Shown: piece by piece, positions 7,090 through 52,791 of the stretch
How positions within the stretch are numbered: the stretch's first letter is position 1
Layout of the letters: every line of letters begins with the position of its first letter
From: an uncultured Proteiniphilum sp.
Lineage (GTDB): Bacteria > Bacteroidota > Bacteroidia > Bacteroidales > Dysgonomonadaceae
Assembly: GCA_927407015.1 (NCBI GenBank)
Contig: CAKMJT010000009.1
Coordinates: 1 to 64,000 of the forward strand
Direction of reading: 5' to 3'
DNA: 64,000 nt
The notes under the pieces: generated by a model
The model's database searches: none
What the model was told of the DNA's origin: nothing
Seen by the model: only the letters and a program-made list of their open reading frames with translations
Program-made: the position numbers and the translations under genes

Positions 7090-7090
7090 G

Positions 7091-8254
7091 TTAGTTGATT
7101 GTGATAATGAAAGGTTGATCAATTTTTTCTTTTTCTGATTTTACAAATTGGATCCAGTCTTCAAAGCTGTTGAATCCGGCTTTGCTCCATCCGCCACCCA
7201 CATAGGTGAGGTAGGGTTCACCTGACGCTATACTGTTCAGTCCGGCAAAGTGCCCTTCCAGTACCTGTGTAGATTCAAATCCGCCGGGATGGATGGCCGC
7301 AGTATATGGGGTGCCATTCACTTCATCGGTAGGATTCTTATAGGCAATGATGCCCGTGTTATCGCCAAAAGTAGTGTTTGCGGCATTTATTTCCGGATTT
7401 TCCTCAGGCATCACAATTCCTGTTGCAACCGTCAGCCCGGTGGTGTCTGTCTCGAAGATATGGGTCACCTTGTTAAAGAGACGATAGGCATCGAGGGAGA
7501 TGATCCGTGTTTCTATGATCTCATGCCAGCCTGCCGGATAAGGATCGTACGTGAGTTTGAAAGTGAATCGGAGCGGGCCGTTATCCAGGATCTCGGCGGT
7601 GACAAAGTTATGGCCCAGACAGAGGGTGTCATTGTTGACAGGCGCAGTCATACCCAAACCCAGCGTTCTTCCTACCTTGTAAAAATCAAGCCCTTCGCCA
7701 TGATCTTCGTGGTAGGAGGCCACACCGGACAAATCGTTCTGATACCATTTGTCGATGATCAGCGAGTCGGTCCTTTTCGCCCAGAAGTCCATGCCGTTGC
7801 TGATCTCTCCGGTCGCTTTCAACGCAGGACCGTATACCCTGAAGGCAGTACGGTTGTTCTCCCAGGTGAAATCATCTTTCCGCTCAGGTACCAGCCTGCC
7901 ATATACCATCGGCTGAACCGGTTCCGGCACTCCTGCGGATACCTGGAATGAAGCAGTCTGACCGGCAGCCAGTGTAACCGGGAACAACAATGCTTCGACG
8001 CTATCTGAACCGTTTGTGATCAACTGGTAAGAGATCTGCTCTCCCAGGCTATCGGTGACGATGATGGTCTGATTTTCCGGGAGAGACAGATGCTGACGGA
8101 TATCTTTCCATGCCACTTCCACCATCTCGTTTTCCCGGTCAATAGAAGTCGGGTTCTGTACATGCAGCGTTAGTTGATTTTGTGATGTGCTACAACCGGA
8201 AAATAAGGTGATCAGAAAGATCAATGAGGTGATTAACAGACTTTTTGCTTGCAT
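7091..8254 (-). CDS. DUF4861 family lipoprotein, uronate operon
   Basis: 387 residues with a lipoprotein signal (SLIFLITLFSGC). The body matches the DUF4861 family: an N-terminal beta-rich part (LTLHVQNPTSIDRENEMVEV, residues 30-120), then NNRTAFRVYGPAL, GMDFWAKRTDSLIIDKWY and YHEDHGEGLDFYKVGRTLG, all well-conserved blocks. The biochemical activity is not known to me. It lies between kduD and kdgK in a tight operon, which places it in unsaturated-uronate metabolism, and its export signal says it acts outside the cytoplasm, unlike its neighbours. A role in processing the unsaturated uronide before import is possible but unproven. Confidence 0.8.
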   Translation of the reverse strand: MQAKSLLITSLIFLITLFSGCSTSQNQLTLHVQNPTSIDRENEMVEVAWKDIRQHLSLPENQTIIVTDSLGEQISYQLITNGSDSVEALLFPVTLAAGQTASFQVSAGVPEPVQPMVYGRLVPERKDDFTWENNRTAFRVYGPALKATGEISNGMDFWAKRTDSLIIDKWYQNDLSGVASYHEDHGEGLDFYKVGRTLGLGMTAPVNNDTLCLGHNFVTAEILDNGPLRFTFKLTYDPYPAGWHEIIETRIISLDAYRLFNKVTHIFETDTTGLTVATGIVMPEENPEINAANTTFGDNTGIIAYKNPTDEVNGTPYTAAIHPGGFESTQVLEGHFAGLNSIASGEPYLTYVGGGWSKAGFNSFEDWIQFVKSEKEKIDQPFIITIN

Positions 8255-8334
8255 ATAATCTGATTTTTATGGATTGATTCATTTGTTGATGTGATGATTG
8301 ATTCCTCTGCAAATCTTTACATCATCAAATCAGG

Positions 8335-9126
8335 TCACGGTTGTTTACCGAGGTAAGCCAATATGCCACCATCCACATACAGGATGTGTCCATTGACAAA
8401 GTTGGAGGCTTCCGAAGCAAGGAACACTGCCGGTCCCATCAGGTCCTCGGTCGTTCCCCAACGGGCTGCCGGTGTTTTGGCAATGATAAACGAGTCGAAA
8501 GGATGGGGAGTGCCATCAGCCTGCTTCTCCCGGAGAGGGGCTGTTTGCGGGGTGGCAATATATCCCGGCCCGATGCCATTGCACTGGATGTTGTATTCCC
8601 CATATTCGGAGCAGATATTCTTGGTGAGCATCTTCAATCCTCCCTTTGCTGCAGCATAGGCCGATACGGTCTCGCGACCCAGTTCGCTCATCATGGAACA
8701 GACATTGATGATTTTGCCGTGTCCTTTTTTGATCATGTGCGGGATAACCGCTTTTGAGACGATAAACGGCCCGTTCAGGTCGATATCGATCACCTGACGG
8801 AACTCTGCAGCCGACATCTCGTGCATCGGAATACGCTTGATAATACCGGCATTATTTACCAGAATATCGATGACCCCTACCTCCTCGGTTACCTGCGCAA
8901 TAAACTTGTTTACCGCATCTTCATCGGTCACATCGCATACGTAACCATGGGCTTCAATGCCCTTTTCCTTGTAGGATGCAAGTCCTTTATCCACCAACGC
9001 CTGGTTGATGTCATTAAACACGATGGTGGCTCCTGCCTCTGCATAAGCCGTTGCTATGGCAAACCCGATGCCATAGGAAGCTCCTGTGACGAGCGCTATT
9101 TTTCCTTCTAACGAGAAATTAACCAT
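8335..9126 (-). CDS. kduD: 2-dehydro-3-deoxy-D-gluconate 5-dehydrogenase (KduD), SDR family
   Basis: 263 residues, classical short-chain dehydrogenase. The NAD(P)-binding motif TGASYGIG is at residues 14-21, NNAG near 90, and the catalytic Tyr/Lys in SAYAAAKGG. It reduces 2,5-diketo-3-deoxygluconate (DKII) to KDG. It is 10 bp after kduI and 80 bp before the DUF4861 gene. It could be called gluconate 5-dehydrogenase from sequence alone, since the two are close; the kduI neighbour decides for KduD. Confidence 0.9.
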   Translation of the reverse strand: MVNFSLEGKIALVTGASYGIGFAIATAYAEAGATIVFNDINQALVDKGLASYKEKGIEAHGYVCDVTDEDAVNKFIAQVTEEVGVIDILVNNAGIIKRIPMHEMSAAEFRQVIDIDLNGPFIVSKAVIPHMIKKGHGKIINVCSMMSELGRETVSAYAAAKGGLKMLTKNICSEYGEYNIQCNGIGPGYIATPQTAPLREKQADGTPHPFDSFIIAKTPAARWGTTEDLMGPAVFLASEASNFVNGHILYVDGGILAYLGKQP

Positions 9127-9136
9127 TTTGTTTTTT

Positions 9137-9979
9137 TTATTTTAGTTCCACAATTTTTGAAAAGTCCTGATCGCCATAGTCGAGGTTCTCACCGGCCATA
9201 CCCCAGATAAAGGTGTAGTTGCTGGTAGCGGCAGCGGAGTGGATGGACCATTCCGGAGAGAGTACGGCCTGATCGCCCTTCATCCAGATGTGACGGGTTT
9301 CATCCACCTCTCCCATGAAGTGGCAGACCGCCTGATCTTCGGGGACCTCGAAGTAGAAATATGCTTCCATCCTGCGGGAATGTACATGTGCCGGCATGGT
9401 ATTCCAAACACTGCCCGGTGCCAGCTCGGTCATGCCCATCTGCAACTGACAGGTAGGCAGTACTTGATTCACGATCATTTTGTTGATATTCCGGTGGTTG
9501 GAAGTCTCCAGTGAGCCCATCTCTGCCACAACAGCATCGGTTTTGGTCACTTTTTTATCGGGATAATTGCGATGAGCCGTGGCTGAGTTGAAATAAAATT
9601 TCGCGGGTTGTGCGGCGTCATCACTTTCAAAGTAGACCTCCCTGTCTCCTGAACCCAGGTACAATGCCTCTTTGTAATCGAGTGCAAAGACAGCATCCCT
9701 CACTTTTACTTTTCCTTTGCCGCCTACATTGTAAATCCCGATCTCCCGGCTGTGCAGGAAAACAGGTTGCTTCAAAGGATCAATTGCTTCCAGGTGCAAC
9801 GACTCATTTACCGGCATCGCTCCGCCCACAACCATACGGTCGTACATGGAGTAGACCATGTTCACTTCATCACCACTGAATACTTTTTCCATTAAAAAAT
9901 CCCTGCGCAAACGCTGTGAATCGTAAGATCTGGCATCTTCCGGATGGGCAGCATAGCGTAGTTCATAATTTGTTTTCAT
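9137..9979 (-). CDS. kduI: 5-keto-4-deoxyuronate isomerase (KduI)
   Basis: 280 residues, matching the usual length of KduI, a cupin-fold zinc isomerase that turns 4-deoxy-L-threo-5-hexosulose uronate (DKI) into DKII. Recognisable blocks are NYELRYAAHPEDARSYD at the N terminus, the metal-binding region around HVHSRRMEAYFYFEVPE and SPEWSIHSAAATSNYTFIWGM near the C terminus. It is the first gene of the minus-strand operon and has a leader of about 155 nt with a hairpin and a palindrome. The enzyme takes the spontaneous product of unsaturated galacturonate freed by PL1 and GH105 enzymes encoded elsewhere in the window. Confidence 0.93.
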   Translation of the reverse strand: MKTNYELRYAAHPEDARSYDSQRLRRDFLMEKVFSGDEVNMVYSMYDRMVVGGAMPVNESLHLEAIDPLKQPVFLHSREIGIYNVGGKGKVKVRDAVFALDYKEALYLGSGDREVYFESDDAAQPAKFYFNSATAHRNYPDKKVTKTDAVVAEMGSLETSNHRNINKMIVNQVLPTCQLQMGMTELAPGSVWNTMPAHVHSRRMEAYFYFEVPEDQAVCHFMGEVDETRHIWMKGDQAVLSPEWSIHSAAATSNYTFIWGMAGENLDYGDQDFSKIVELK

Positions 9980-39280: not shown

Positions 39281-39390
39281 CGACGAATGGATCCTTGAAG
39301 CAGAAAGCTGTTTTTAACCCATAATAACGGCTTCATGCTTATACTTGTTACGAAGAACTGTCATTATTTGTTGAAAAATCTGTTTTGTCA

Positions 39391-42300
39391 TTGAAAACAA
39401 AAATAAAAATATTGGTTCTGATTCATTTTACACTTTGCTTTAGTGTGAATTCGCTCATGTCACAACCCGAAGCTTACTTCAAGCATTATGGATTTGAGGA
39501 TGGCCTTCCGCAGCATACCATTACAGATATTCTTCAGGATGAAAAAGGTTTTATGTGGTTTAGCACGTGGGACGGATTGAGTAAATTCGACGGTTACACA
39601 TTCACGACCTATCATCTGCCATCGGGAAATATCACAGCATCAAAAAGTAGCAGAATAGATAATCTGTATGAGGACAAATATAACAATATTTGGGCTCTTT
39701 CCTACGATAATCAGGCTTTTCGATTTAATGTGGAGACAGCCTCTTTTTTAGGGACAAACGCAATAGAAGCGTGTAAAGGTAGTACATTTGCTGCCAATCA
39801 GATTGTTCCTCTGGAGAGCGGTAAGGTATGGCTTTTATCGGAGAAAGATGGATGTATCGTAATTATTGACTCTCTTTTCAACGCAGAAATATACAATACC
39901 GGAAATCAAAATTTAACGGATAATTATGTCCATGCTATTCACGAAGACAGAGAACGGAATTCCTGGATACTGACCAACCGGGGATTGACCATGGTTCCGG
40001 CAGACGGGTCCGAACCTGTTTTTTACTTTCATCCTTTATCCACGGGCAGGTTTAAAGAGAATGCTCCTTTTTTTAGTGCGATGGAGTTGGGCGATGAAGT
40101 ATGGTTCGGCTCCAACAAGGGGATTATCTGGAAGTATGATCTGAACGAGGGAGCCTTTGCGCAACTCTCCACAGGTATTACCTCGGATGTCATATCAATG
40201 CGTGAAATCTCTTCCGAAAAAATACTTATCCTTTCCAATCATGGCGGATTTGTTATTTACAATACCCACGACGGCAGGATGGAGTACTATAACAGCGCCA
40301 GTATTCCAGAAATTAAGTCGGACAGATTTATTACAAGTTACATTGACCGCTCAAAGAATATATGGCTGGAGACCGATCAACTGGGAGTGTCAAAATTTAA
40401 TCCTTATACCGGTCAATATATTCATTTTACACCCTTTATAGAAAGTACTGAGTCAAATGTTTTTCTTCCCAATTTCTTTATTTTTGAAGATAAGGAAGAT
40501 CGACTGTGGATACACCCCAGAGGTGGAGGCTTTTCCCTCTTCGATAAAACGAATAACCGGCTTATTCCCTTTTACAATGACCCTACTTCGTCCTCATGGA
40601 TGTTTTCCAACATGATGCACTCGGCCTATTCCGACAAACAGGGCAATTTATGGATGTGTACCCGATCGCACGGTTTAGAGAAGGTGATATTTTATGATAA
40701 TTCCAAGTTTATGACGATTCAACCCTCTAACGATATTCACTCGACTATTAGTAATGAGGTGCGACCTGTTTTCGAGGATTCATTCCACAATATCTGGGCA
40801 GCGACGAAAGATGGGCGAATTCGTGTATTTAACGGAGAAATGAAGGAGAGAGGTATCCTGAATAATCGCGGAGAGATAGGAAGTGGAACCCCATTGGAGG
40901 GTATCGCATACTGTATCACCGAAGACTCCGGAAAGAATATCTGGATAGGTACGAAAGGCGAAGGTGTTTATAAACTTACCAGGAGAGAGGACGGGAGCGG
41001 TTTTCATATATCCCATTATAAAAATGATCCGTACGACAAATATTCGTTAAGTGACAATAATGTATATACTATTTTCGAAGACAAAAACAAAAATATCTGG
41101 ATCGGTACGTTCGGAGGCGGATTAAATCTGATTATCCATGCAGATACAGAGGGTAAAATAGTAAACTATCTCAACGATTTGACCAGTTATCCTTTCAATC
41201 ATGCCGATAGGGTCAGGATTATTACCAGCGATAAACAGGGGCAAATCTGTGTGGGTACAACACTCGGATTTATGATGTTTGATGCTGATTTCGAATCGCC
41301 TCAGGAAATAGATTTTAAGATTTACACCCGGAATGCCGTCGATGAACATTCTATCGGAGCAAACGATATCATCGATATTTGTACCACACAATCGGGTGAA
41401 ACCTATATCGGCACATTTGGAGGAGGTATCAGTAAGATAAAGGAAACAGATCAAAGCGGTTTCCCGGTTAGATTTGAAAATTTCAACACTTCTCATGGAT
41501 TACCTTCAAACATTATACTGTCGATTCAGGAAGATGGCAAAGGAAATCTTTGGATTTCCAGTGAAGGGAGCTTAACCAAATTCAACCGGCAAGAACAAAC
41601 CTTTGAAAATTTCAGCGAAATAAAACGGCTGATGAAGCGGCATAATTTTTCCGAAAACTCGAGTTGTTGTTTGGGTGACGGAAGAATGTTGTTCGGATAT
41701 TCACACGGGATGTTTATGTTTGATCCGGAAAATGTAAAAAATAATACCTTTAATCCCTATCTTGCTCTGGTGCAGTTCCGGTTGTTCAGCCGTCCTCTCC
41801 CCATCTCCACTGAAGGTCCGTTGCATAAGAGCATTGATTTGATTGAGCGCCTGCAGCTGAAGCACAACCAGAATTTTATCAGCATTGAGTTTGCGGCTCT
41901 GGATTATACCGATCCGGAAAATATTCTGTATGCCTATAAACTGGACGGATTTGATAAGGAGTGGATCTATTCCGGTAATCAGCGCATCGCCAACTATACA
42001 AATCTATCCCCGGGGAAGTATCTTTTTCGGGTGAAATCGACCAACAGCGACGGAGTATGGGCCAACAATGAGCGGACGCTTGCCATTGAGGTGCTCCCCC
42101 CCTTCTGGGCAACTGCATGGGCATATCTTATCTACATATTGCTGACTGTGCTGGTGTTGTTTATTACATTCAGAATCCTTCACACTTTTTACAGGATGCG
42201 CAACAAAATCGTTTTGGAAAAGCAGGAATCGGAGATCAAAACCCGTTTCTTTACCAACATATCGCATGAGATTCGCACGCCGCTGACGATGATCGTCTCT

Positions 42301-43845
42301 CCGATTGAGAATCTGATACAAAGTAAATCAACTCCCGAGGCGGTGAAAAAACAGCTCTTTCTTGTTTCCAAGAATACGAAACGGCTGTTGAATATGGTGA
42401 ATCAAATCCTCGATTTTCAAAAGATGGAACAATCATCCCTAACCGTCAGTAAGATTGCCATAGGACCTTTTGTGGAAAATCTGTTTGAGATTTACGTTAA
42501 TAATGCGAAGCTTAAAAAAATAGACTATCGTTTTGAAAACAGGGTGGGTGAACAGTTGCTATGGGTAGATGCCGAAGCGGTGGAAAAAATTGTGGTAAAT
42601 CTTCTTTCCAACGCATTCAAGTATACGCCTCCCGGAAAGTCGATCCATGTATCTGTGTTCTACGATAACGGTGAGGTAGCCCTGCAGGTCAGGGATACCG
42701 GTATTGGCATCAATAAGGAAAGAATGGGCCGGCTGTTCCGACGGTTTGAGTCTTTCAATGAGGATGCAAGCAAACCGAGTACCGGCATAGGATTATCCAT
42801 CGTGAAAGAGATGGCCGACAAGCATCGGGCCAGAATAACTGTTGAAAGTGAAGAGAACAGAGGTAGTCGATTTACGGTTTTTTTCAAAAAAGGGACTTCA
42901 CACTTCGGTGCCGATGTGACCATTGATGATTCTTTCAGGCCCGTGGCCGAGAACGAACCCCAGAAAGGAATGCCGGATGAGCAACTCGCCGTCTTACCCT
43001 GTGAGCAGATCAATGATCACCCCTGTGTATTGGTGGTGGAGGATGATGACGATCTGAGACAATTTATCCGGTCGATTCTCGAAAGTGAATACGAGGTGCA
43101 TGAAGCATCGAATGGAAAAGAGGGGTTTGAAAAAGCAATGGAGCTGATTCCCGACTTCATTGTCAGTGACATCATGATGCCGGAAGTAGACGGAATAGAA
43201 TTGCTTGAAAGTGTTCGCAAAAATATCCACACAAGCCATATCCTCTTTTTACTGCTTACAGCCAAAACGACCCTCGACAGCAAGCTCGAGGGGTTTGAGC
43301 ACGGGGCTGATGAGTACATTTCCAAGCCTTTCAGCGTCTCCTTTTTCAAGGCCAGGGTGAAGAATCTGTTGCAGAGAAGGAGTGAATTGCAGCAGTATTA
43401 CAGGAACAGGAACAACACAAAGTCAAACATAGGGTCAGCAGAAAATAACGGTACACATACGCCTGTGAGCGATAAAGAGATGGAGTTCATCGGATCGGTC
43501 AATTCCTTTATTGAGCAACATCTGGGAAACAATGATTTTGTCATTGAAGATCTGGCGGTAGAGATGGGAATGAGCCGCACTGTGTTTTTTAAAAAGATGA
43601 AGGGTCTCACGGGACTTGCTCCCATTGAATATGTACGGGATATTTTGATGCAGCACGCGGCTGAACTGCTTGAAAAAAGCGATTATTCCATCAAGGAGAT
43701 CTCTTACAGGGTGGGAATGAACGATGCCAAGTATTTCGCCAAATGTTTCAAGAAGAAATTCAACATGACTCCCAGTGAATATAAAAAGTATGCGATTCAC
43801 CTTTCATCAATCACTCATGGAACAGAAATCATGGATTTGGACTAA
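39391..43845 (+). CDS. Hybrid two-component system sensor-regulator (HTCS) for the pectin locus
   Basis: About 1484 residues from a TTG at 39391 (in-frame TTG at 39385 also possible; no ATG fits). Order: signal/TM, two seven-bladed propellers of Reg_prop repeats (about 30-800, repeats such as DKQGNLWMCT, DKNKNIWIGTFGGGL), Y_Y_Y domain (about 835-900), TM helix (about 908-932), HisKA with His959 in ISHEIRTP, HATPase (NLLSNAFKYTPPG, DTGIGI, GIGLSI), receiver domain with Asp1260 in VSDIMMP, and a C-terminal AraC helix-turn-helix (about 1380-1480). This one chain senses a periplasmic oligosaccharide and activates transcription, here almost certainly of the divergent SusC operon. Confidence 0.92.
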   Translation: MKTKIKILVLIHFTLCFSVNSLMSQPEAYFKHYGFEDGLPQHTITDILQDEKGFMWFSTWDGLSKFDGYTFTTYHLPSGNITASKSSRIDNLYEDKYNNIWALSYDNQAFRFNVETASFLGTNAIEACKGSTFAANQIVPLESGKVWLLSEKDGCIVIIDSLFNAEIYNTGNQNLTDNYVHAIHEDRERNSWILTNRGLTMVPADGSEPVFYFHPLSTGRFKENAPFFSAMELGDEVWFGSNKGIIWKYDLNEGAFAQLSTGITSDVISMREISSEKILILSNHGGFVIYNTHDGRMEYYNSASIPEIKSDRFITSYIDRSKNIWLETDQLGVSKFNPYTGQYIHFTPFIESTESNVFLPNFFIFEDKEDRLWIHPRGGGFSLFDKTNNRLIPFYNDPTSSSWMFSNMMHSAYSDKQGNLWMCTRSHGLEKVIFYDNSKFMTIQPSNDIHSTISNEVRPVFEDSFHNIWAATKDGRIRVFNGEMKERGILNNRGEIGSGTPLEGIAYCITEDSGKNIWIGTKGEGVYKLTRREDGSGFHISHYKNDPYDKYSLSDNNVYTIFEDKNKNIWIGTFGGGLNLIIHADTEGKIVNYLNDLTSYPFNHADRVRIITSDKQGQICVGTTLGFMMFDADFESPQEIDFKIYTRNAVDEHSIGANDIIDICTTQSGETYIGTFGGGISKIKETDQSGFPVRFENFNTSHGLPSNIILSIQEDGKGNLWISSEGSLTKFNRQEQTFENFSEIKRLMKRHNFSENSSCCLGDGRMLFGYSHGMFMFDPENVKNNTFNPYLALVQFRLFSRPLPISTEGPLHKSIDLIERLQLKHNQNFISIEFAALDYTDPENILYAYKLDGFDKEWIYSGNQRIANYTNLSPGKYLFRVKSTNSDGVWANNERTLAIEVLPPFWATAWAYLIYILLTVLVLFITFRILHTFYRMRNKIVLEKQESEIKTRFFTNISHEIRTPLTMIVSPIENLIQSKSTPEAVKKQLFLVSKNTKRLLNMVNQILDFQKMEQSSLTVSKIAIGPFVENLFEIYVNNAKLKKIDYRFENRVGEQLLWVDAEAVEKIVVNLLSNAFKYTPPGKSIHVSVFYDNGEVALQVRDTGIGINKERMGRLFRRFESFNEDASKPSTGIGLSIVKEMADKHRARITVESEENRGSRFTVFFKKGTSHFGADVTIDDSFRPVAENEPQKGMPDEQLAVLPCEQINDHPCVLVVEDDDDLRQFIRSILESEYEVHEASNGKEGFEKAMELIPDFIVSDIMMPEVDGIELLESVRKNIHTSHILFLLLTAKTTLDSKLEGFEHGADEYISKPFSVSFFKARVKNLLQRRSELQQYYRNRNNTKSNIGSAENNGTHTPVSDKEMEFIGSVNSFIEQHLGNNDFVIEDLAVEMGMSRTVFFKKMKGLTGLAPIEYVRDILMQHAAELLEKSDYSIKEISYRVGMNDAKYFAKCFKKKFNMTPSEYKKYAIHLSSITHGTEIMDLD

Positions 43846-44006: not shown

Positions 44007-45413
44007 ATGAAAAGTTTTATACATGAAGACTTTTTGCTACAAACCGACTCAGCGAGAGAGCTGTATCATGAGCATGCGAAAAAGCAACCTATTATCGACT
44101 ATCATTGTCATTTAAACCCTGCGGCAATTGCCGGTGATCATGTATTTGACAACCTGGGCCAGTTATGGCTCGAGGGTGATCATTACAAATGGCGTGCGAT
44201 GCGCACCAACGGGGTGGAGGAGAAATACTGTACCGGGAAGGAGACCTCAGACTGGGAGAAATTTGAGAAATGGGCGGAAACGGTTCCTTACGCCATGCGA
44301 AACCCGTTATATCACTGGACTCACCTGGAACTGAAATCTGCTTTCGGGGTGGAAAAACTGCTGAATCCTGAAACAGCGAGGGAGATTTACGACGTCTGTA
44401 CAGAGAAATTGCGCACACCCGAATACTCCGCCCGGGGACTGATGCAGCATTTTAATGTCAAGGTGGTTTGTACGACCGATGATCCGGCTGATAACCTGGA
44501 ACATCACCTCTCGTTAAAGAAGGAGGGATTCAGAATAAAAATACTCCCCACGTGGCGTCCCGATAAAGCGATGGCTGTCGAAAATCCGGCAGCGTATCGT
44601 GCTTATGTAGAAAAATTATCTGAAGTATCCGGTGTGACGATCACCAAATTCAGTGATTTGATGGAAGCACTACGCAACCGTCATGACTTTTTTGCTTCCG
44701 TTGGTTGCAGGCTCTCCGACCATGGCATAGAAGAGTTTTACGCCGAGAGATATACCTTGATTGAGATTGAACAAATATTTGAGAAGGTTTACAGTGGCAG
44801 GGAATTGACACATGAACAGGTACTGAAATTCAAGTCGGCCATGATGTACGAGGGTGCCTTGATGGATTGGGAAAAAGGGTGGACGCAGCAATTTCATTAT
44901 GGTGCCATCCGTAATAACAATACAAGATTGTTCAATCAGCTGGGTCCCGATACCGGTTTTGACTCAATAGGTGACTTCAATGTTGCAAAAGCATTGAGTC
45001 GTTTTCTCGACCAGCTGGATAAGGACAACAGACTGGCGAAAACAATTATCTACAACCTCAATCCCAGAGACAATGATATGATTGCCACCATGATCGGCAA
45101 TTTCCAGGATGGATCGGTGCCGGGAAAGATTCAGTTCGGATCCGGATGGTGGTTCCTCGACCAGAAGACAGGGATGGAAGCACAGATGAACTCACTGTCG
45201 AATCTCGGCCTGCTGAGCCGTTTCGTGGGTATGATTACCGACTCACGCAGTTTTGTTTCTTACCCAAGGCATGAGTATTTTCGCCGCATTCTGTGCAACC
45301 TCATCGGGAACGATGTGGAGAATGGACTGCTTCCTGCTTCCGAGATGACGTTTCTTGGGGAAATGGTGGAGAACATATCCTATCACAACGCAAATCAATT
45401 CTTTCAATTTTAA
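44007..45413 (+). CDS. uxaC: Uronate isomerase
   Basis: 468 residues from the ATG at 44007 (the frame extends to 43947, but the family starts MKSFIHEDFLLQT). An amidohydrolase-type barrel with the metal motif DYHCHL and the N-terminal GDHYKWRAMR block; C-terminal RFVGMITDSRSFVSYPRHEYFRR. It interconverts D-glucuronate with D-fructuronate and D-galacturonate with D-tagaturonate. First gene of the saturated uronate cluster, 86 bp before uxaE. Placed next to the pectin sensor, it takes free galacturonate from the GH28 enzymes. Confidence 0.95.
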   Translation: MKSFIHEDFLLQTDSARELYHEHAKKQPIIDYHCHLNPAAIAGDHVFDNLGQLWLEGDHYKWRAMRTNGVEEKYCTGKETSDWEKFEKWAETVPYAMRNPLYHWTHLELKSAFGVEKLLNPETAREIYDVCTEKLRTPEYSARGLMQHFNVKVVCTTDDPADNLEHHLSLKKEGFRIKILPTWRPDKAMAVENPAAYRAYVEKLSEVSGVTITKFSDLMEALRNRHDFFASVGCRLSDHGIEEFYAERYTLIEIEQIFEKVYSGRELTHEQVLKFKSAMMYEGALMDWEKGWTQQFHYGAIRNNNTRLFNQLGPDTGFDSIGDFNVAKALSRFLDQLDKDNRLAKTIIYNLNPRDNDMIATMIGNFQDGSVPGKIQFGSGWWFLDQKTGMEAQMNSLSNLGLLSRFVGMITDSRSFVSYPRHEYFRRILCNLIGNDVENGLLPASEMTFLGEMVENISYHNANQFFQF

Positions 45414-45498
45414 AACAGGTACAGGAAACGGAGTATGATGGATGGCACCGACACCGGTGGTTATCGCGTCTTCCGGGTACCAAATAAATAATCATCAA

Positions 45499-46746
45499 AT
45501 GAAACTAGGAAAATACAGTATTGGAGTGGGTGATCGTTTCACTCATCAGGGAAAAGCTCAGCTGAGAGCCATCATGAAAGCAAATGAAAAAGGATTGTAT
45601 ATCAGTCCGGTATGGAATAAATCCAACAGAGAGCATATCTATGTCGGTACAGAGCCGGCTGATACACGCAAAGAGGCGGATGAAGCCGTTCAGGCGTTGA
45701 ATTACGAAGGACCGTATTTTGTGGATGCTGACCATATCAATTTGAATACAGTTGCCAAGTATGTAGCTGTTTCAGATTTCTTTACCCTCGATGTGGCTTC
45801 ATTTATCGGCAAAGAAAGCAGTGATGAAGCGGTGGAAGCCTTTGTCGCCTCTTGCGGGAAATATCTGGGAGAATTGCAGATCCCCGGCATAGACCAGCCA
45901 CTGTATATTACCGAAGCGTTGTTGCAGGGTATTGCCGGTAAGTTTCTGGCAGCCACTCAACATGCCTCGGAGATTTATGCATACCTGAAAAAGGAAAAAG
46001 GTGAGGGTCATTTTATCACGGAGGTTTCCATGGACGAGGTGGAATCACCGCAGACACCCGTTGAGTTGCTTTTTATTCTGAAGATGCTTGCTGATAAGGC
46101 TGTTCCTGTACAGACGATCGCACCCAAGTTTACCGGTCGTTTCAATAAAGGAGTCGATTATGTAGGTGACCTAGATCAGTTCGCCAGAGAATTTGAAGAG
46201 GATGTGCTGGTGCTTGATTTTGCCGTGAAGGAATTCGGCCTGCCGGAAGAGCTGAAACTGAGCATTCACTCGGGAAGCGATAAGTTTTCCATCTATCCCC
46301 TCATGGCGGATGTGATACTGAGGTACGACAAGGGACTCCATTTGAAAACTGCCGGTACCACATGGCTGGAAGAGGTGATTGGATTGGCTGTGGCGGGTGG
46401 TGATAGCCTTGATCTGGCCAGGAAGATTTATGAGGAGTCCTATAACCGGCAGGAAGAACTCTGTGCTCCTTATGCCGATGTAATTGATATCGACGGGTCC
46501 AAACTGCCTTCCGTTGAAGAAGTGAACGGCTGGACCAGTGAAAGGTTCGCCAATACACTCCGTCATATTCCGGGGCACGCAGATTACAACTCCAATTTCC
46601 GCCAGTTGATCCATGTGGCATACAAAGTGGCTGCCGAAATGGGAAGCGAGTATACCGACCTGCTGGTGAAGTATGCCGATGTCATTGGTGCATGTGTGGA
46701 GGAGAATATTTACGAAAGACATATAAGGAGATTATTCACGATCTGA
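45499..46746 (+). CDS. uxaE: Tagaturonate 3-epimerase family protein (UxaE)
   Basis: 415 residues from the ATG at 45499 (MKLGKYSIGVGDRF). The sequence matches the UxaE family of metal-dependent epimerases that convert D-tagaturonate to D-fructuronate, thereby replacing UxaB/UxaA: visible blocks are GDRFTHQGKAQLRA, PYFVDADHINL, KFTGRFNKGVDYVGD, and SIHSGSDKFSIYP. With UxaC upstream and UxuB downstream it merges the galacturonate and glucuronate branches at fructuronate. A possible terminator overlaps its stop codon. Confidence 0.88.
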   Translation: MKLGKYSIGVGDRFTHQGKAQLRAIMKANEKGLYISPVWNKSNREHIYVGTEPADTRKEADEAVQALNYEGPYFVDADHINLNTVAKYVAVSDFFTLDVASFIGKESSDEAVEAFVASCGKYLGELQIPGIDQPLYITEALLQGIAGKFLAATQHASEIYAYLKKEKGEGHFITEVSMDEVESPQTPVELLFILKMLADKAVPVQTIAPKFTGRFNKGVDYVGDLDQFAREFEEDVLVLDFAVKEFGLPEELKLSIHSGSDKFSIYPLMADVILRYDKGLHLKTAGTTWLEEVIGLAVAGGDSLDLARKIYEESYNRQEELCAPYADVIDIDGSKLPSVEEVNGWTSERFANTLRHIPGHADYNSNFRQLIHVAYKVAAEMGSEYTDLLVKYADVIGACVEENIYERHIRRLFTI

Positions 46747-46774
46747 TGCCGGAGATCAGGCATCACTCCTTTTA
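46744..46774 (+). terminator. Short hairpin with T tract after uxaE
   Basis: A perfect 7-bp stem TGATGCC / GGCATCA with an 8-base loop begins in the uxaE stop codon and is followed by CTCCTTTT. It is a weak intrinsic terminator candidate and may separate uxaCE from the four genes after it. Confidence 0.4.
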
Positions 46775-46876
46775 TGGATGCGATGTTATCACAAAAAGCT
46801 GTTTCGACACCCGATTTTTATCGCTTTTGGAAGAGCTCTTTACGCGAAATATCCGTCGGAAGTAAAATGATCGCCC

Positions 46877-46884
46877 TATTTTTG
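46877..46884 (+). promoter_or_regulatory. Candidate -7 box for uxuB-pfkB-gnd-larA
   Basis: TATTTTTG fits TAnnTTTG and lies 28 bp before the uxuB start. No convincing -33 box. Together with the hairpin after uxaE it suggests a second transcription start inside the cluster. Confidence 0.4.
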
Positions 46885-46912
46885 TCTATTACAAACCATA
46901 AGAAATTATACT

Positions 46913-47725
46913 ATGTACGAATTATTTGATATCCAAAACAAAGTGATTGTCATTACGGGTGGTACCGGTGTCCTGGGTACATCCATGGTTGAATACCTCG
47001 CTGCTCACGGGGCAAAAGTGGCTGTTCTGGCCAGAAATGAGGAAAAGGGAAACCAGCTCACGGAGAAAGTGAAGGCCAACGGTGGAGATGCCATGTTCCT
47101 CAGGACAGATGTGTCGGACGAGGCCTTGCTGAAGCAGAATGCCCTGGATATTGTGGCAAAATACGGCCGTATTGATGTGCTGATCAATGGTGCCGGAGGG
47201 AATATGCCCGGGGCTACCATCGGGCCGGACAGCAATATCTTCGACCTGAAGATGGATGATTTCCGCAAGGTGGTCGATTTGAATCTGATGGGAACCGTGA
47301 TCCCCTCCGTGGTTTTTGCGGAGTACATGGTGAAGGAGAATAAAGGGAATATCGTGAATATCTCCTCTGCATCCGCATTGAGGCCGCTGACCCGTGTTGC
47401 GGGGTATGGTGCGGCGAAAGCAGCCGTCACCAATTTCACCAGGTACCTGGCGGGGGAGCTGGCGACCAAGTTCGGCGAGGACTTTCGTGTGAACGCCTTG
47501 TGTCCGGGCTTCTTCATCACCGAGCAAAACAGGGCACTACTCACTAATCCCGATGGTTCCTATTCCGATAGAGGACACACCATTATCGCCCATACTCCTT
47601 TCCGTCGTTTTGGTAATCCTGAAGACCTCCTGGGAACACTGCACTATCTGGTCAGCGATGCCTCCCGGTTTGTGACTGGTACGGTTGCCATAGTAGACGG
47701 CGGTTTCGATGCCTTTAGCATTTGA
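46913..47725 (+). CDS. uxuB: SDR-type D-mannonate oxidoreductase (fructuronate reductase)
   Basis: 270 residues. SDR signature TGGTGVLG (about 16-23), NGAGGNMPG, catalytic Ser in NISSAS and Tyr/Lys in YGAAKAAV. It is of the short-chain UxuB type found in Firmicutes and Bacteroidetes, reducing D-fructuronate to D-mannonate. It follows uxaC and uxaE in the expected pathway order. Confidence in the substrate rests mostly on that order. What follows is not uxuA. Confidence 0.85.
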   Translation: MYELFDIQNKVIVITGGTGVLGTSMVEYLAAHGAKVAVLARNEEKGNQLTEKVKANGGDAMFLRTDVSDEALLKQNALDIVAKYGRIDVLINGAGGNMPGATIGPDSNIFDLKMDDFRKVVDLNLMGTVIPSVVFAEYMVKENKGNIVNISSASALRPLTRVAGYGAAKAAVTNFTRYLAGELATKFGEDFRVNALCPGFFITEQNRALLTNPDGSYSDRGHTIIAHTPFRRFGNPEDLLGTLHYLVSDASRFVTGTVAIVDGGFDAFSI

Positions 47726-47727
47726 AA

Positions 47728-47750
47728 CAGCGGTCAGCTTTCAGCTCTCA
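47728..47750. repeat. Short copy of the CAGC(G/A)GTCAGC repeat
   Basis: CAGCGGTCAGCTTTCAGCTCTCAG between uxuB and pfkB resembles the longer repeat at 5909-5992 (CAGCAGTCAGC, TCAGCTCTCAGCG). Two copies in intergenic places of two uronate units; no known function. Confidence 0.45.
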
Positions 47751-47788
47751 GTAAACAACAAATACAATTCAAAAATCCTCAATTAAAC

Positions 47789-48868
47789 ATGTCTCTCGAA
47801 TTAAAACAAAATTGCAAATATGCGTTGGTTGTACCCACCAGCATGGGGGTGCGGATCACACCGGTGAATGCTCAACCCGTACAAAGCGCTAATTTATTCC
47901 AGATGCAGGCAACCAGCGCCGAAACGAATGTGGCCAGCATCTCCTCTTACCTGGGCCTTCCGGTAAAGGTGCTGACCACCTTTGTGAAGGACAGCCCGAT
48001 CGCTGCTTTCATCAAAGCCGATTTACGGGCACGGAACATGGATTATGAAGGTCCGGAAGTACCACAGGGTGACCCGTGGGGATACCGGCATCAGTTCAAT
48101 ATTGCCGACAGTGGTTACGGCCTGCGTGGCCCGCGGGTGCAGAACGACCGTGCGGGCGAGGTGGGAAGGACTCTGAATGTGAAGGATTTTGATCTGGAAC
48201 GGATCTTCGGCCAGGAAGGCGTGCAGATTGTGCATCTCTCCGGGTTGATAGCGGCACTGTCGTCCGACACCAGTTACTTCTGTCTGGAGATAGCCCGTTT
48301 TGCCAGGAAGCATGGCACCCTGATCTCTTTCGACCTGAACTACAGGGCCACTTTCTGGAAGGGCAGAGAGAAAGAACTGAGTGACGCGTTCCGGGAAATC
48401 GCTTCCCTTTCCGACATCCTTATCGGCAACGAGGAGGATTTCCAGTTGTGTCTTGGTATTGAAGGGCCCAAAGCGGGGGGTGAGAATATCGGAGATACCA
48501 TGGATGCCTTCAAGGGGATGATCCTGAACGCGAAAAAAGCATTTCCGCATGCATCCGTTTTCGCCAACACATTGCGGGAAGTGATCAGCGCCAATGAACA
48601 TCTATGGGGTGCCATTGTTTATGAAAACGGGAACTGGCATGAGGCACCCCTGCGCAGAATCAACGTGATAGACCGTATTGGCGGTGGTGACGGATTTGTA
48701 GGCGGATTGCTCTACAGTATCCTGAAGGGAATGGATCCGGTGAAATGGATTCAGTTTGCCTGGGCGAGCGGTGCTTTGGCTACCACCTTCCTTACCGACT
48801 ATGCCCAGCCTGCCGATGAAGAGGTGATCTGGAGCATCTGGAAGGGTAATGCACGCGTAAAAAGATGA
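47789..48868 (+). CDS. PfkB-family sugar or sugar-acid kinase, substrate unassigned
   Basis: 359 residues, cytoplasmic. PfkB hallmarks: QATSAETNVASISSYLG (substrate loop), SFDLNYRATFWKG, LIGNEEDFQLCLG and the catalytic NVIDRIGGGDGFVGGLLYS (Asp base). It differs clearly from the first PfkB protein (KdgK at 6052-7089) in the N-terminal part. Annotation by similarity would be KDG kinase, but the operon lacks mannonate dehydratase and contains gnd and a LarA-type gene, so D-gluconate (or D-mannonate) is a better-fitting substrate. It is 63 bp after uxuB. Which sugar acid it uses must be measured. Confidence 0.75.
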   Translation: MSLELKQNCKYALVVPTSMGVRITPVNAQPVQSANLFQMQATSAETNVASISSYLGLPVKVLTTFVKDSPIAAFIKADLRARNMDYEGPEVPQGDPWGYRHQFNIADSGYGLRGPRVQNDRAGEVGRTLNVKDFDLERIFGQEGVQIVHLSGLIAALSSDTSYFCLEIARFARKHGTLISFDLNYRATFWKGREKELSDAFREIASLSDILIGNEEDFQLCLGIEGPKAGGENIGDTMDAFKGMILNAKKAFPHASVFANTLREVISANEHLWGAIVYENGNWHEAPLRRINVIDRIGGGDGFVGGLLYSILKGMDPVKWIQFAWASGALATTFLTDYAQPADEEVIWSIWKGNARVKR

Positions 48869-48974
48869 TTGAACGATGTGATAATCTGGCGAACAGCAAA
48901 ATATCAGGGTATTGTGTTTCGTTGTGAAAGATAAAATCTTAATTCCAGGTAAAAAAAAATTGATATAAAAAAAA

Positions 48975-50429
48975 ATGAAAGAAAAAGCAGATATTGGATT
49001 GATCGGACTGGCCGTGATGGGCGAGAATCTGGTCCTGAATATGGAGAGTAATGGTTACACGGTGGCTGTATTCAACAGAACGGTTGCCAAGGTGGATCAG
49101 TTTCTGGAAGGTAGGGGAAAAGGGAAAAACTTTATTGGCGCACATTCTCTGGAAGAGTTTGTGGCCTCCATCGAACGACCGCGCAAAGTGATGATGCTGG
49201 TGAAAGCCGGTAAGCCGGTGGATGATTTTATCGAGCTGCTCCTCCCCCTGCTGGAACAGGGCGACATCATCATCGACGGCGGTAACAGCCATTTCCCCGA
49301 CAGCATCCGCAGAACAAAGTATGTGGAAAGCAAAGGATTGTTATATGTGGGTACCGGCGTCTCCGGCGGTGAAGAGGGTGCACTGAAAGGGCCATCCATG
49401 ATGCCAGGTGGTTCTCCCGCAGCATGGCCGCACGTGAAAGAGATCTTCCAGGCTGTTGCAGCCAAAGTGGATGACGGCGTTCCCTGCTGCGACTGGGTGG
49501 GTGAGAACGGTGCAGGCCACTTCGTGAAGATGGTACACAACGGTATAGAGTATGGCGACATGCAGATCATCAACGAAGCCTATCATCTGATGAAAGACGT
49601 GCTGGGCATGGATGCCTTCGACCAGCACGAGGTCTTCAAACAATGGAACAAGGGCGTGCTCGATTCCTATCTGATTGAGATCACAACCGATATCCTGGCT
49701 TATAAAGATGAAGACGGATCGCCTTTGGTAGAGAAGATACTCGATACTGCCGGCCAGAAAGGTACCGGTAAATGGACCGCCGTCACGGCTCTCGATCTGG
49801 GCATTCCGCTCACGCTGATCGGTGAATCGGTCTTTTCCCGCTGTCTCTCGGCGCAGAAGGACCTGAGGGTCAAGGCTTCCAAAGTCCTTTCCGGCAAGAA
49901 ACCGGAGTTTAGGGGTGACAAGCAGCAGTTTATCGGTGACCTGGAAAAAGCAATCTACGGTGCCAAGATCATCTCTTACGCACAGGGCTACGATCTGATG
50001 ATGGAGGCAGCCAGAGAGTATGGCTGGAATCTGAATTACGGAGGTATCGCCCTGATGTGGCGTGGTGGTTGTATTATCCGTTCCCGCTTTTTGGGTGATA
50101 TTAAGAAAGCATTCGACAACAACCCGTCACTGGAGAACCTGCTGCTTGACCCCTTCTTCAAGGAAGCCGTGCAGACGGCACAGGAGAGCTGGCGCAGGGT
50201 ATGTGCCACAGCACTGCTGAATGGTATCCCCGTCCCGGCGCTTACCTCGGCACTGAACTACTTCGACGGATTCCGCAGTGAACGTTTGCCGGCCAACCTG
50301 CTGCAGGCACAACGCGATTTTTTCGGAGCCCATCAGTATGAGCGTGTGGACAGGCCGCGGGGTGAATTCTTCCACACCAACTGGACAGGACACGGAGGGG
50401 ATACTGCCTCCACAACCTACGATGTGTAA
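48975..50429 (+). CDS. gnd: 6-phosphogluconate dehydrogenase, decarboxylating
   Basis: 484 residues, full length for the NADP-dependent enzyme. Rossmann GLAVMGENLVLNM (about 9-21), GVSGGEEGALKGPSMMPGG, GAGHFVKMVHNGIEYGDMQ with the catalytic Lys, WRGGCIIRSRFLGDI and the C-terminal FHTNWTGHGGDTAST. Converts 6-phosphogluconate to ribulose-5-phosphate and CO2. Finding gnd inside a uronate gene cluster, between a sugar kinase and a LarA-type gene, is not usual and suggests that 6-phosphogluconate is made from uronate here. Confidence 0.95.
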   Translation: MKEKADIGLIGLAVMGENLVLNMESNGYTVAVFNRTVAKVDQFLEGRGKGKNFIGAHSLEEFVASIERPRKVMMLVKAGKPVDDFIELLLPLLEQGDIIIDGGNSHFPDSIRRTKYVESKGLLYVGTGVSGGEEGALKGPSMMPGGSPAAWPHVKEIFQAVAAKVDDGVPCCDWVGENGAGHFVKMVHNGIEYGDMQIINEAYHLMKDVLGMDAFDQHEVFKQWNKGVLDSYLIEITTDILAYKDEDGSPLVEKILDTAGQKGTGKWTAVTALDLGIPLTLIGESVFSRCLSAQKDLRVKASKVLSGKKPEFRGDKQQFIGDLEKAIYGAKIISYAQGYDLMMEAAREYGWNLNYGGIALMWRGGCIIRSRFLGDIKKAFDNNPSLENLLLDPFFKEAVQTAQESWRRVCATALLNGIPVPALTSALNYFDGFRSERLPANLLQAQRDFFGAHQYERVDRPRGEFFHTNWTGHGGDTASTTYDV

Positions 50430-50494
50430 TACGGATGTGCTGATTTGTTGATTCGATCTGAAATCCCATATCAGACATCCTAAATTTCAATAGA

Positions 50495-51781
50495 ATGATA
50501 TACTACGCGAATGGCTCTTCAGATAAGAGTTTGTCAAGAGACGACCTGAAAAGAGGGCTGTATGAAGCATTCAGCAGATTGGGGGAACGGCGGAAAATTC
50601 TGGCCGTTCCACCCGATTATACCCGCTTGCCAAGTAAGGCGGGAGACCTGACAGAGCTGTCCTGGGAGTATTACGGTGATAAGCTTACCGATATCCTTCC
50701 CGCACTGGGTACACACACGCCAATGACCGAAGCACAGATCAGCCATATGTTCGGAGATACGCCGAAGAGCCTTTTCCGTGATCATGACTGGCGTAATGAT
50801 GTGATTACACTCGGAGAGGTGCCAGCAGCGTACGTGCGTGAAGTGTCGGAAGGGAAGGTCGATTTTTCCTGGCCGGTGCAGGTCAACCGATTGCTCCAGG
50901 AGGGCGGCTTTGATCTGATTCTCTCCATAGGGCAGGTGGTTCCTCACGAGGTGGTGGGCATGGCCAACTACAATAAAAATATATTCGTGGGTACTGGAGG
51001 AACTGAAGGCATCAACAAGAGCCACTACATCGGAGCCGTATATGGGATGGAACGGATGATGGGCCGGGCTGATACACCCGTTCGGCGGGTGTTCAACTAT
51101 GCCACCGATCATTTCGCACAGCACCTGCCCATCGTTTATGTACTCACGGTGGTGGGTGTGAACAAGGCGGGTGAACAGCAGACCTACGGACTGTTCGTGG
51201 GTGATGATTTCGAAGTGTTCGACCAGGCAGCCAAATTGTCGCTGGAGGTTAATTTCGTGATGGTGAAGAAACCCCTGAAGAAGGTAGTGGTATGGCTCGA
51301 CCCCACTGAATTCAAGAGTACCTGGCTGGGCAACAAGTCGATATACCGGACAAGAATGGCTATTGCCGATGAGGGGGAGCTGATTGTGCTGGCACCGGCC
51401 CTCAAGGAGTTCGGCGAAGACAAGGCAATCGATCTGCTGATCCGCAAGTATGGTTATTTCGGCACTCCTCAGACACTGAAGGCTGTATCGGAGAACGGCG
51501 ATCTCAGAGATAACCTGAGTGCTGCAGCCCACTTGATCCACGGATCATCCGAAGGCCGGTTTTCCATCACCTACTGTCCCGGAAAGAGAGAAGAAAATCT
51601 AAGCCGTGAAGAGATCGAAAGCGTCGGTTTCCAATGGGGCGATATCGATATGGCCCTGCAAAAGTACAATCCACATCAGCTGAAGGAAGGTTTCAACCTG
51701 CTTCCCGACGGGGAGGAGATTTACTACATCTCCAGTCCTGCCCTTGGACTGTGGGCTTACAGAGACCGTTTTGATCTGTGA
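50495..51781 (+). CDS. LarA-superfamily (DUF2088) hydroxyacid racemase/epimerase, candidate D-gluconate/D-mannonate 2-epimerase
   Basis: 428 residues. The residues that hold the nickel-pincer cofactor and substrate in lactate racemase have counterparts: Asp41 and Arg44 (PDYTR), His74 (GTHTPMT), His151 (VPHEVV), Lys161 (NYNKN) and His177 (KSHYIG). The His-Lys-His spacing of 10 and 16 is the same as in LarA (174, 184, 200). LarA-superfamily members include D-gluconate 2-epimerases as well as lactate and malate racemases. Lying beside gnd and after a D-mannonate-producing enzyme, the best guess is mannonate to gluconate conversion. LarB, LarC and LarE genes for the cofactor are not in the window. 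Confidence 0.7.
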   Translation: MIYYANGSSDKSLSRDDLKRGLYEAFSRLGERRKILAVPPDYTRLPSKAGDLTELSWEYYGDKLTDILPALGTHTPMTEAQISHMFGDTPKSLFRDHDWRNDVITLGEVPAAYVREVSEGKVDFSWPVQVNRLLQEGGFDLILSIGQVVPHEVVGMANYNKNIFVGTGGTEGINKSHYIGAVYGMERMMGRADTPVRRVFNYATDHFAQHLPIVYVLTVVGVNKAGEQQTYGLFVGDDFEVFDQAAKLSLEVNFVMVKKPLKKVVVWLDPTEFKSTWLGNKSIYRTRMAIADEGELIVLAPALKEFGEDKAIDLLIRKYGYFGTPQTLKAVSENGDLRDNLSAAAHLIHGSSEGRFSITYCPGKREENLSREEIESVGFQWGDIDMALQKYNPHQLKEGFNLLPDGEEIYYISSPALGLWAYRDRFDL

Positions 51782-51837: not shown

Positions 51838-52746
51838 TCAATGATAGCTTAACCTGTACAGGGGCGGTTTCTTCAACTCGTTCATATATTCCGTAGGAGA
51901 ATGTTTGATGATCTGCCTGAATTGCCTATTGAAATTGGATACATTGTTGAATCCGCTCTCATAGCAGATCTCACTAATTGAATAATTCCCTTCCTGTAAT
52001 AACTTGCAGGCATAACCGATACGCAGGTCGTTGATATACTGAACGCAGGTTTTTCCAGTCTTTTCCAGGAAGTATCGGCAGAAGGAGGTCTGGTTCATTC
52101 CGGCAACCCCTGCAATCTCCTTCAGGGTGAGTTGTCGGGTATATTCCCGTTTCAGAAACGAAAGCACCTTGATCAGACGGGTGTCCGCCTCGATGAACTC
52201 CGATTCGGTCTCTGAATCTTCGTTGTTGAGCAGCGTGTAATGCGAGGAACTGCTCATCAGCGAGAGGATCTGTATGCATTCCATCAACAGGGGCAGCCCC
52301 TTTAGACGGAGAGCCCTGGTAATCTTCTTTCGGATCCGGTGGTTGGCATTCTTGTCGAAGCAGACTCCCTGTTTTGCCTTGATCAGTAGGTTTTTGATGT
52401 TGAACAACTCGGGGTAATGGGTTATCCCATAGTGGAAGAAGTTTCTGGAGGACTGGATGGTAATGGCATGTACCCTTAAATCGGGACGGTTCTCATAGTA
52501 TTCCGGATCGCTACGGTACATGTGGGGAAGTGAGCTACCCAGCAGAACCAGGTCACCGTCGGAATAGGGCTGGATACTGTTGCCCACAAATCGCGTACCA
52601 GTGCTTTTCAGAATGTAAACAATCTCATATTCATCGTGGAAGTGCAGCGGAAACTTAAAATAGTCATAGTCGCACCATTTTATTTTCACCGGTGAACCAC
52701 TATCCAGGTTCAGATTTTCATGCATGATCCGCTTCATAATGTTCAT
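51838..52746 (-). CDS. AraC-family regulator with cupin sensor domain
   Basis: 302 residues from the ATG at 52746 (Met14 at 52737 is equally possible). A frame open to 52776 would overlap a -7 box, so it is not used. N-terminal cupin (about 25-110: HFHDEYEIVYILKSTGTRFVGN, DGDLVLLGSSLPH), C-terminal two helix-turn-helix motifs (about 205-300: LTLKEIAGVAGMNQTSFCRYF; SISEICYESGFNNVSNFNRQFR). Convergent with the LarA-type gene. It probably senses a sugar or uronate and could control the uronate cluster or the next cluster. Confidence 0.88.
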   Translation of the reverse strand: MNIMKRIMHENLNLDSGSPVKIKWCDYDYFKFPLHFHDEYEIVYILKSTGTRFVGNSIQPYSDGDLVLLGSSLPHMYRSDPEYYENRPDLRVHAITIQSSRNFFHYGITHYPELFNIKNLLIKAKQGVCFDKNANHRIRKKITRALRLKGLPLLMECIQILSLMSSSSHYTLLNNEDSETESEFIEADTRLIKVLSFLKREYTRQLTLKEIAGVAGMNQTSFCRYFLEKTGKTCVQYINDLRIGYACKLLQEGNYSISEICYESGFNNVSNFNRQFRQIIKHSPTEYMNELKKPPLYRLSYH

Positions 52747-52762
52747 CTTTTTGGTTGAGATG

Positions 52763-52791
52763 CAAATATAGTACATTTTATAGCAAATATA
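52763..52791 (-). promoter_or_regulatory. Two tandem -7 boxes before the AraC gene
   Basis: On the minus strand TATATTTG occurs at 52791-52784 and again at 52770-52763. The nearer box lies 16 bp from the ATG at 52746, so the mRNA leader is short. This placement also rules out the start at 52776. Confidence 0.5.

Follow-up and report, generated by a model that had tools for sequence, protein, structure and literature searches.

The window analysed here is a 64,000-nucleotide stretch of contig CAKMJT010000009.1 from an uncultured Proteiniphilum sp. At positions 44007 to 51781 it carries an operon-like cluster of six saturated-hexuronate genes: uxaC, a uxaE-type gene, a uxuB-type gene, a PfkB-family kinase gene, gnd and a larA homologue. 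We propose, with a probability of roughly 60%, that this cluster feeds the pentose phosphate pathway with gluconate as an intermediate. The six genes make up the complete gene set of a GntE-type route (uxaC, uxaE, uxuB, an epimerase gene, a kinase gene and gnd). The route itself has already been proposed and its key reaction proven, and the novelty lies in the version seen here. The initial annotation of this DNA had suggested that galacturonate and glucuronate are converted to ribulose-5-phosphate via gluconate. This remains the best reading, as the kinase tracks LarA, gnd is linked, GntE2 is the nearest characterised relative and 35 of 56 larA-bearing genomes lack a UxuA match, but the cluster is not the sole exit for mannonate, since the genome also carries uxuA.

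According to the proposed route, UxaC would isomerise galacturonate and glucuronate, the UxaE-type protein would convert tagaturonate to fructuronate, and the UxuB-type short-chain dehydrogenase/reductase (SDR) would reduce fructuronate to D-mannonate. The LarA homologue, which belongs to group 18, would then invert C2 to give D-gluconate, the PfkB kinase would phosphorylate this to 6-phosphogluconate, and Gnd would release ribulose-5-phosphate, CO2 and NADPH. Mannonate would be the branch point between the pentose phosphate pathway, supplied by this cluster, and the 2-keto-3-deoxygluconate (KDG) branch, supplied by a uxuA gene elsewhere in the genome. What each enzyme acts on, whether epimerisation precedes phosphorylation, and the flux are inferences.

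Family scans confirmed the identities and the order initially given for the six genes (Table 1), which all lie on the + strand with intergenic gaps of 28 to 166 bases in the list of open reading frames (ORFs) of the window. The uxaC ORF opens at 43947, and the family match spans the protein from the ATG at 44007. For the uxaE-type protein, the NCBIfam scan gave no matching model.

Table 1. Genes of the hexuronate cluster, its flanking regulators and the separate unsaturated-uronate cluster in the window.
Feature	Position	Strand	Evidence
uxaC, uronate isomerase	44007-45413	+	PF02614 676 bits, NF002794 660 bits, full length
uxaE-type tagaturonate/fructuronate 3-epimerase	45442-46746	+	PF16257 181 bits, cut-off 27.1
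uxuB-type SDR, predicted fructuronate to D-mannonate reductase	46913-47725	+	NF006132 D-mannonate oxidoreductase 368 bits, cut-off 281
PfkB-family kinase, putative gluconate (or mannonate) 6-kinase	47789-48868	+	PF00294
gnd, decarboxylating 6-phosphogluconate dehydrogenase, NADP type by family name	48975-50429	+	TIGR00873 753 bits, NF006765 717 bits
LarA homologue, group 18, putative hexonate C2-epimerase	50495-51781	+	NF052594 656 bits, cut-off 500
AraC-family regulator, convergent with the cluster	51838-52776	-	HTH_18 1e-20
Hybrid two-component regulator (sensor, kinase, receiver, AraC-type output), upstream	39385-43845	+	Translation read by eye
KDPG aldolase (eda)	5228-5896	-	NF005499 363 bits
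KDG kinase (kdgK), paralogue of the 47789 kinase	6052-7122	-	NF041633 494 bits over the kinase part
SDR	8335-9126	-	NF005488 gluconate 5-dehydrogenase 512 bits (cut-off 369); kduD TIGR01832 232 bits (cut-off 339)
kduI	9137-9979	-	NF002091 415 bits

The last gene of the cluster encodes a full-length member of NF052594 (656.5 bits, model positions 2-410 of 411). This family (NPN_18_hexonate) is named 'nickel-dependent putative hexonate epimerase' in NCBIfam and corresponds to LarA group 18. The initial placement in the LarA superfamily is borne out by this membership and by the nearest structure, that of the Thermotoga gluconate 2-epimerase GntE2 (4nar; PMC7583248; papers are cited here and below for the passages available to us). 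Indeed, 4nar was the only sequence match in the Protein Data Bank at E 0.001 (E 1e-33; profile E 5e-43). The AlphaFold model of the protein, with a mean predicted local distance difference test score (pLDDT) of 84, aligned to 4nar with a Z of 37.4 and a root-mean-square deviation (rmsd) of 2.8 over 392 residues. The next structure was 9eia (Z 27.9), and lactate and malate racemases scored lower than 4nar (Z 25-28).

Equivalents of the nickel-pincer-binding and catalytic residues (R75, K184, H200, D72, H108, H174 and K298) are all present, and they were invariant in 55 of 55 aligned group 18 proteins, a set that has two rows from genome G294 and leaves out G154 and the truncated L142. An E-V loop was invariant in the same 55 proteins, as was a Trp that aligns with a Trp of GntE2 ahead of the catalytic Lys; we read this residue as the Trp listed for groups 18-20 in PMC7583248. 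Both GntE1 and GntE2 are LarA homologues that convert D-mannonate to D-gluconate (PMC7583248), and further gluconate epimerases were added by PMC11770544. The groups assayed in PMC7583248 are 19 and 20, distinct from group 18, which is only hypothesised there to act on hexonate and whose substrate is left open; group 19 perhaps prefers another sugar acid, according to its authors. The larA gene of the window had ratios of nonsynonymous to synonymous substitution rates (dN/dS) of 0.035-0.061 against three relatives in which LarC was not found (dS 1.4 to 2.7), these being the usable pairs, with synonymous sites saturated in the other five. This indicates strong purifying selection on the gene among LarC-less relatives. 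A LarA 77-78% identical to that of the window was found in a record titled Chromatiales (L045), which is probably a misbinned Bacteroidota contig.

To place the cluster among related genomes, we used 374 sampled genomes of the order, which is Bacteroidales by the nearest named records, and a set of related loci consisting of the best 80 LarA matches, loci cut by contig edges included. Genome counts are uncorrected for relatedness throughout. NF052594 matched 58 of the 374 genomes, 54 of them over its cut-off. After G003 (19 bits) and G360 (29 bits) were dropped, there were 56 genomes with group 18 larA (larA18), including two (G262 and G154) with sub-cut-off fragments at contig ends. The 24 larA18-free genomes used for comparison were hand-chosen, not random; 19 have uxuA and five, one of which is G003, do not.

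Near larA, the 80 related loci held the kinase in 71 cases, gnd in 70, the UxuB-type SDR in 66 and uxuA in eight. Among the 56 loci of the order, from 55 genomes, the SDR was found in 48, gnd in 44, the kinase in 29, a PfkA homologue in 12 and uxuA in four. The linkage of larA, gnd, kinase and SDR is more than chance. The initial annotation had named co-occurrence of the cluster genes in related genomes, with uxuA absent, as a check. The kinase, gnd, the SDR and larA do co-occur, but uxuA is not universally absent: 21 of the 56 larA18 genomes have a UxuA match, with weak or fragmentary matches (G007, G176 and others) counted as present, and 35 have none. Two further genes recur near larA and gnd, one for a PdxB-like dehydrogenase (40/80 loci, e.g. 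L028, L054, L062 and L077) and one for a Gfo/Idh/MocA oxidoreductase (39/80); neither was seen in the window cluster. Elsewhere in the assembly, zwf and pgl are adjacent (G000:C56, L144), and no gnd was present among the ORFs of at least 150 aa in the 9 kb around them. The gnd of the cluster may therefore have a second role in the ordinary oxidative branch of the pentose phosphate pathway.

The statement that UxuA is missing holds for the cluster only and not for the genome. An intact uxuA is present in the same assembly (G000:C1:20191-21339; PF03786, 368 bits; a 393-aa open frame), which rules out its absence. This gene (L003) lies beside genes for a xylose isomerase, a xylulokinase, a xylanase and a xylosidase, as identified by eye from their translations, which suggests that it is used on glucuronoxylan. 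The proposed route would coexist with UxuA here. As far as tested, it would be the only visible mannonate exit in 35 of the 56 larA18 genomes, judged on UxuA, ManD-type dehydratases not having been searched.

Over 347 aligned residues, the kinase at 47789 shares 100 with its paralogue, the KDG kinase (KdgK) encoded at 6052-7122. NF041633 gave the 47789 kinase 170 bits versus 494 bits for that KdgK. The KdgK models NF052444 and NF040938 (cut-offs 400) gave the 47789 kinase 31 and 52 bits, and the KdgK of the window also fell below these cut-offs, at 48 and 99 bits. Many positions fixed in 68 kinases of the 47789 type differ from the residues fixed in 13 KdgKs. In the window kinase, the N-terminal GG of KdgK is SA at 43-44 and the Tyr of the VVYDR loop is Asn at 119; we take these changed positions to be KDG-binding sites. 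The nearest kinase structures were the KDG kinase 2afb (Z 39.8, rmsd 2.1, 324 residues aligned, 28% identity) and 4gm6 (Z 38.4), a PfkB kinase of unstated substrate.

Orthologues of this kinase (at least 56% identity) were found in 40 of the 56 larA18 genomes versus none of the 24 hand-chosen genomes without larA18. Paralogues of 33-37% identity, present in 11 of 80 genomes, were excluded from this count and may represent a further sugar-acid kinase. We rejected a second KdgK as the likely reading of the kinase, because a separate KdgK is present in the window, the fixed positions differ and the distribution follows larA18. Two loci are unusual in their kinase genes. At G096:C124:22568-23818 the match falls in two pieces (80% and 64% identity) inside one 439-aa frame, an odd insertion, and at G007:C27:1227-3463 a paralogue of 35% identity adjoins the orthologue.

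Many larA18 genomes without the PfkB kinase carry a PfkA homologue. At 71% identity or more, this protein was found in 14 of the 56 larA18 genomes, 13 of which are among the 16 kinase-less genomes and one of which also has the PfkB kinase, a near-exclusion with a Fisher p of 3.9e-9 by genome. This count leaves out matches of 58% in G014 and G169, whose addition gives three shared genomes and a p of 1.4e-7, and further matches of 34-39%. This PfkA was counted in none of the 24 larA18-free genomes. Of the 12 order loci with PfkA, 10 have it between the SDR and larA, and in none of the 56 order loci were PfkB kinase and PfkA found together. Neither kinase was found in G006, G248 or G370. G248 and G370, both with a completeness of 75-76%, do hold a paralogue of the PfkB kinase at 33-34% identity.

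The PfkA protein matches NF010675, diphosphate-dependent phosphofructokinase (365 bits, cut-off 273), and its GGND and PKTIDND motifs look to us like the pyrophosphate (PPi) type. The simplest reading is that PfkB and PfkA, two unrelated kinases, serve the same step. A linked prediction is that this PPi-type homologue is a hexonate 6-kinase in 13 of the 16 PfkB-less larA18 genomes; phosphorylation of sedoheptulose-7-phosphate is presumably another possible role for it. A HAD-type protein of about 295 aa mostly accompanies PfkA between the SDR and larA (L104, L125, L132, L126 and L092), and the one such protein scanned had no NCBIfam match.

The nickel-pincer nucleotide of LarA proteins is made by LarB, LarE and LarC (PMC11770544, PMC11796402). 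In this assembly, which is 94.7% complete, two models did not find LarC, and no match over the cut-off was found for LarE (best 33 bits) or LarB (best 52 bits, probably PurE). A LarA matured with LarBCE, as presumed in the initial annotation, can therefore not be assumed, nor can an active holoenzyme. The three genes matter for function, whereas membership of NF052594 does not depend on them.

Across the 56 larA18 genomes, LarB, LarC and LarE were all-or-none: the same 30 genomes had all three over the cut-off and the other 26 had none. Two LarBCE-plus genomes have a weaker LarC (151 bits in G225; 75 bits, with a fragmented match, in G143). In G219:C4, G016:C402 and G420:C23 the LarC match is broken into two parts that overlap (model positions of about 1-240 and 236-375), resembling a split or frameshifted gene. 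A completeness of at least 95% is listed for 18 of the 26 LarBCE-less genomes. We set aside incomplete assembly as the sole cause of the absence, considering these values and that the three genes are below the cut-off together in all 26. The binding and catalytic residues are kept in all 26 aligned LarA proteins from LarBCE-less genomes, and 16 of these genomes are also without a UxuA match. In the LarA tree the LarBCE states are interleaved, with 10 changes, at least seven of which are forced by well-supported branches. No site among the 55 aligned proteins cleanly splits LarBCE-plus from LarBCE-less LarA. We likewise set aside decay of the LarA proteins in LarBCE-less genomes, or their grouping in a single aberrant clade, given the low dN/dS, the invariant residues and the interleaved tree.

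LarC was found in 30 of the 56 larA18 genomes versus 13 of the 318 others (p 5e-19). Genomes with larA18 thus make the cofactor more often than those without, so that the exceptions are all the more unexpected. In the named-record set, covering 47 of the 80 loci, we searched for LarC only, on contigs of at least 3 kb and without completeness figures, and did not find it in 38 of the 47 genomes. These include Proteiniphilum acetatigenes DSM 18083, Seramator thermalis, Mariniphaga anaerophila, Maribellus sediminis, Tangfeifania diversioriginum and two Draconibacterium species. LarC was present in Mariniphaga sediminis, Maribellus maritimus and Mangrovibacterium marinum. Conversely, about 15% of genomes are mentioned as having LarBCE but no LarA (PMC11796402). 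In the passages covered by our literature search, including those of PMC12611868, we met no mention of LarA without LarBCE; older and possibly relevant papers lie outside that search.

With no known synthesis gene found in this genome, the cofactor would come from outside or from genes not yet known. We tentatively suggest, at a little under even odds, that LarA-type epimerases here work without LarB, LarC and LarE, be it through a second, unrelated pathway, through uptake of the cofactor or a precursor from neighbours in the manner of a vitamin, or with another cofactor in the same pocket.

Several observations weigh against the route via gluconate. The genome holds its own uxuA, where an obligatory route would go with its absence. 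Among the 374 genomes, uxuA is commoner with larA18 (21/56) than without it (56/318), so the route is not a general replacement of UxuA, and in eight of the 80 loci uxuA lies inside the cluster, between SDR and kinase (one representative scanned). The structures closest to the 47789 kinase are KDG kinases, and four of the 16 kinase-less larA18 genomes carry a paralogue of 33-37% identity that might substitute for it. No LarB, LarC or LarE was found in this genome, and the literature passages available on LarA groups contain no assay of a group 18 protein. Finally, Lactobacillus suebicus phosphorylates mannonate before epimerisation, with genes not identified in that work (PMC6978723).

This last point bears on the order of the two steps. 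With phosphorylation first, the PfkB or PfkA-like protein would be a mannonate 6-kinase and LarA18 a 6-phosphomannonate 2-epimerase, the type of gene missing from the Lactobacillus suebicus pathway. Extracts showed mannonate kinase and 6-phosphomannonate 2-epimerase activity and made no gluconate from mannonate (PMC6978723). The gene content of our cluster is equally compatible with this order, and group 18 is separate from the assayed groups 19 and 20 (PMC7583248). However, the nearest characterised relative uses unphosphorylated D-mannonate, and we consider phosphorylation first unlikely. LarA18 could also be no working epimerase here if the nickel-pincer nucleotide cannot be made; the cluster would then run via uxuA only and larA18 would be a relic or have another duty. 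The missing LarB, LarC and LarE and the presence of uxuA agree with this, whereas the dN/dS of 0.035-0.061 against LarC-less relatives, the residues kept in 26 of 26 proteins from LarBCE-less genomes and the 16 of these 26 genomes that also lack a UxuA match render it improbable.

The cluster might instead belong to the ordinary route, in which UxuA encoded elsewhere forms KDG, the 47789 kinase is a second KDG kinase, and the neighbouring gnd and larA serve unrelated functions. The intact uxuA, the KDG kinases as nearest kinase structures and the eight of 80 loci with uxuA between SDR and kinase are in line with this. Yet the window already has a clear KdgK, the kinase was found in none of the 24 hand-chosen genomes without larA18 (uxuA is present in 19 of them), and it stays with larA and gnd where there is no UxuA match (G058, G257 and G355), which makes this reading quite improbable. 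It is very improbable that LarA18 has a different hexonate or an acid derived from uronates as its substrate while the kinase and gnd handle external gluconate. The group 18 substrate was left open and group 19 perhaps prefers another sugar acid (PMC7583248), but our cluster makes D-mannonate by its predicted functions, no altronate-branch gene is among its six, and the SDR (66/80) and gnd (70/80) near larA bracket exactly one C2 inversion.

If the route via gluconate holds, a sizeable share of the order (54 of 374 sampled genomes) would be able to send pectin uronates to NADPH and pentoses, not pyruvate. More interesting than the pathway is the cofactor question: the all-or-none absence of LarB, LarC and LarE beside an intact LarA under selection makes the source of the nickel-pincer cofactor testable in cultured strains.

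Outside the cluster, we link the convergent AraC-family regulator to it by position only. The separate unsaturated-uronate genes at 5228-9979 were initially listed as kduI, kduD, kdgK and eda. All four genes are present, although the SDR called kduD is under the kduD cut-off and over that of NF005488. In the context of a kdu cluster, either name, kduD or gluconate 5-dehydrogenase, may be wrong. Between kdgK and this SDR lies a gene for a BT3233-family polysaccharide utilization protein (7091-8254, - strand; NF058564, 354 bits).

Epimerisation of mannonate to gluconate followed by gluconokinase and 6-phosphogluconate dehydrogenase was proposed by Rodionova et al. (2012) from gene clusters of Thermotoga and others, as reported in PMC6978723 and PMC7953866, and GntE2 activity was demonstrated in 2020 (PMC7583248). 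UxaE or tagaturonate/fructuronate epimerase is mentioned in PMC7953866, which also names gntE of Thermotoga, PMC4891872 and PMC12076931; the available passages of these three hold no version of the route like this one. In the Gramella (Bacteroidota) paper, UxaE occurs with UxuA in the classical arrangement (PMC4891872). A literature search on a Bacteroidota route and hexonate epimerases, judged by titles and abstract openings, gave nothing else to the point.

Compared with known systems, the 47789 kinase has its fold in common with the KDG kinase 2afb, at 28% identity and with KdgK-fixed positions changed. The LarA of the window is a full-length member of NF052594, whose name implies a nickel dependence that known cofactor genes do not support here. 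The cluster differs from that of Thermotoga maritima in its LarA, which is of group 18 here and group 20 there, in its PfkB-type kinase, in that LarB, LarC and LarE were not found, and in that its nearest named relatives are Bacteroidota (Proteiniphilum). It shares with the GntE route of Thermotoga maritima UxaC, UxaE, fructuronate reductase, a LarA-type epimerase, gluconate kinase and phosphogluconate dehydrogenase, by which mannonate would enter the pentose phosphate pathway. As in Lactobacillus suebicus (PMC6978723), mannonate would be diverted to 6-phosphogluconate and ribulose-5-phosphate, bypassing UxuA.

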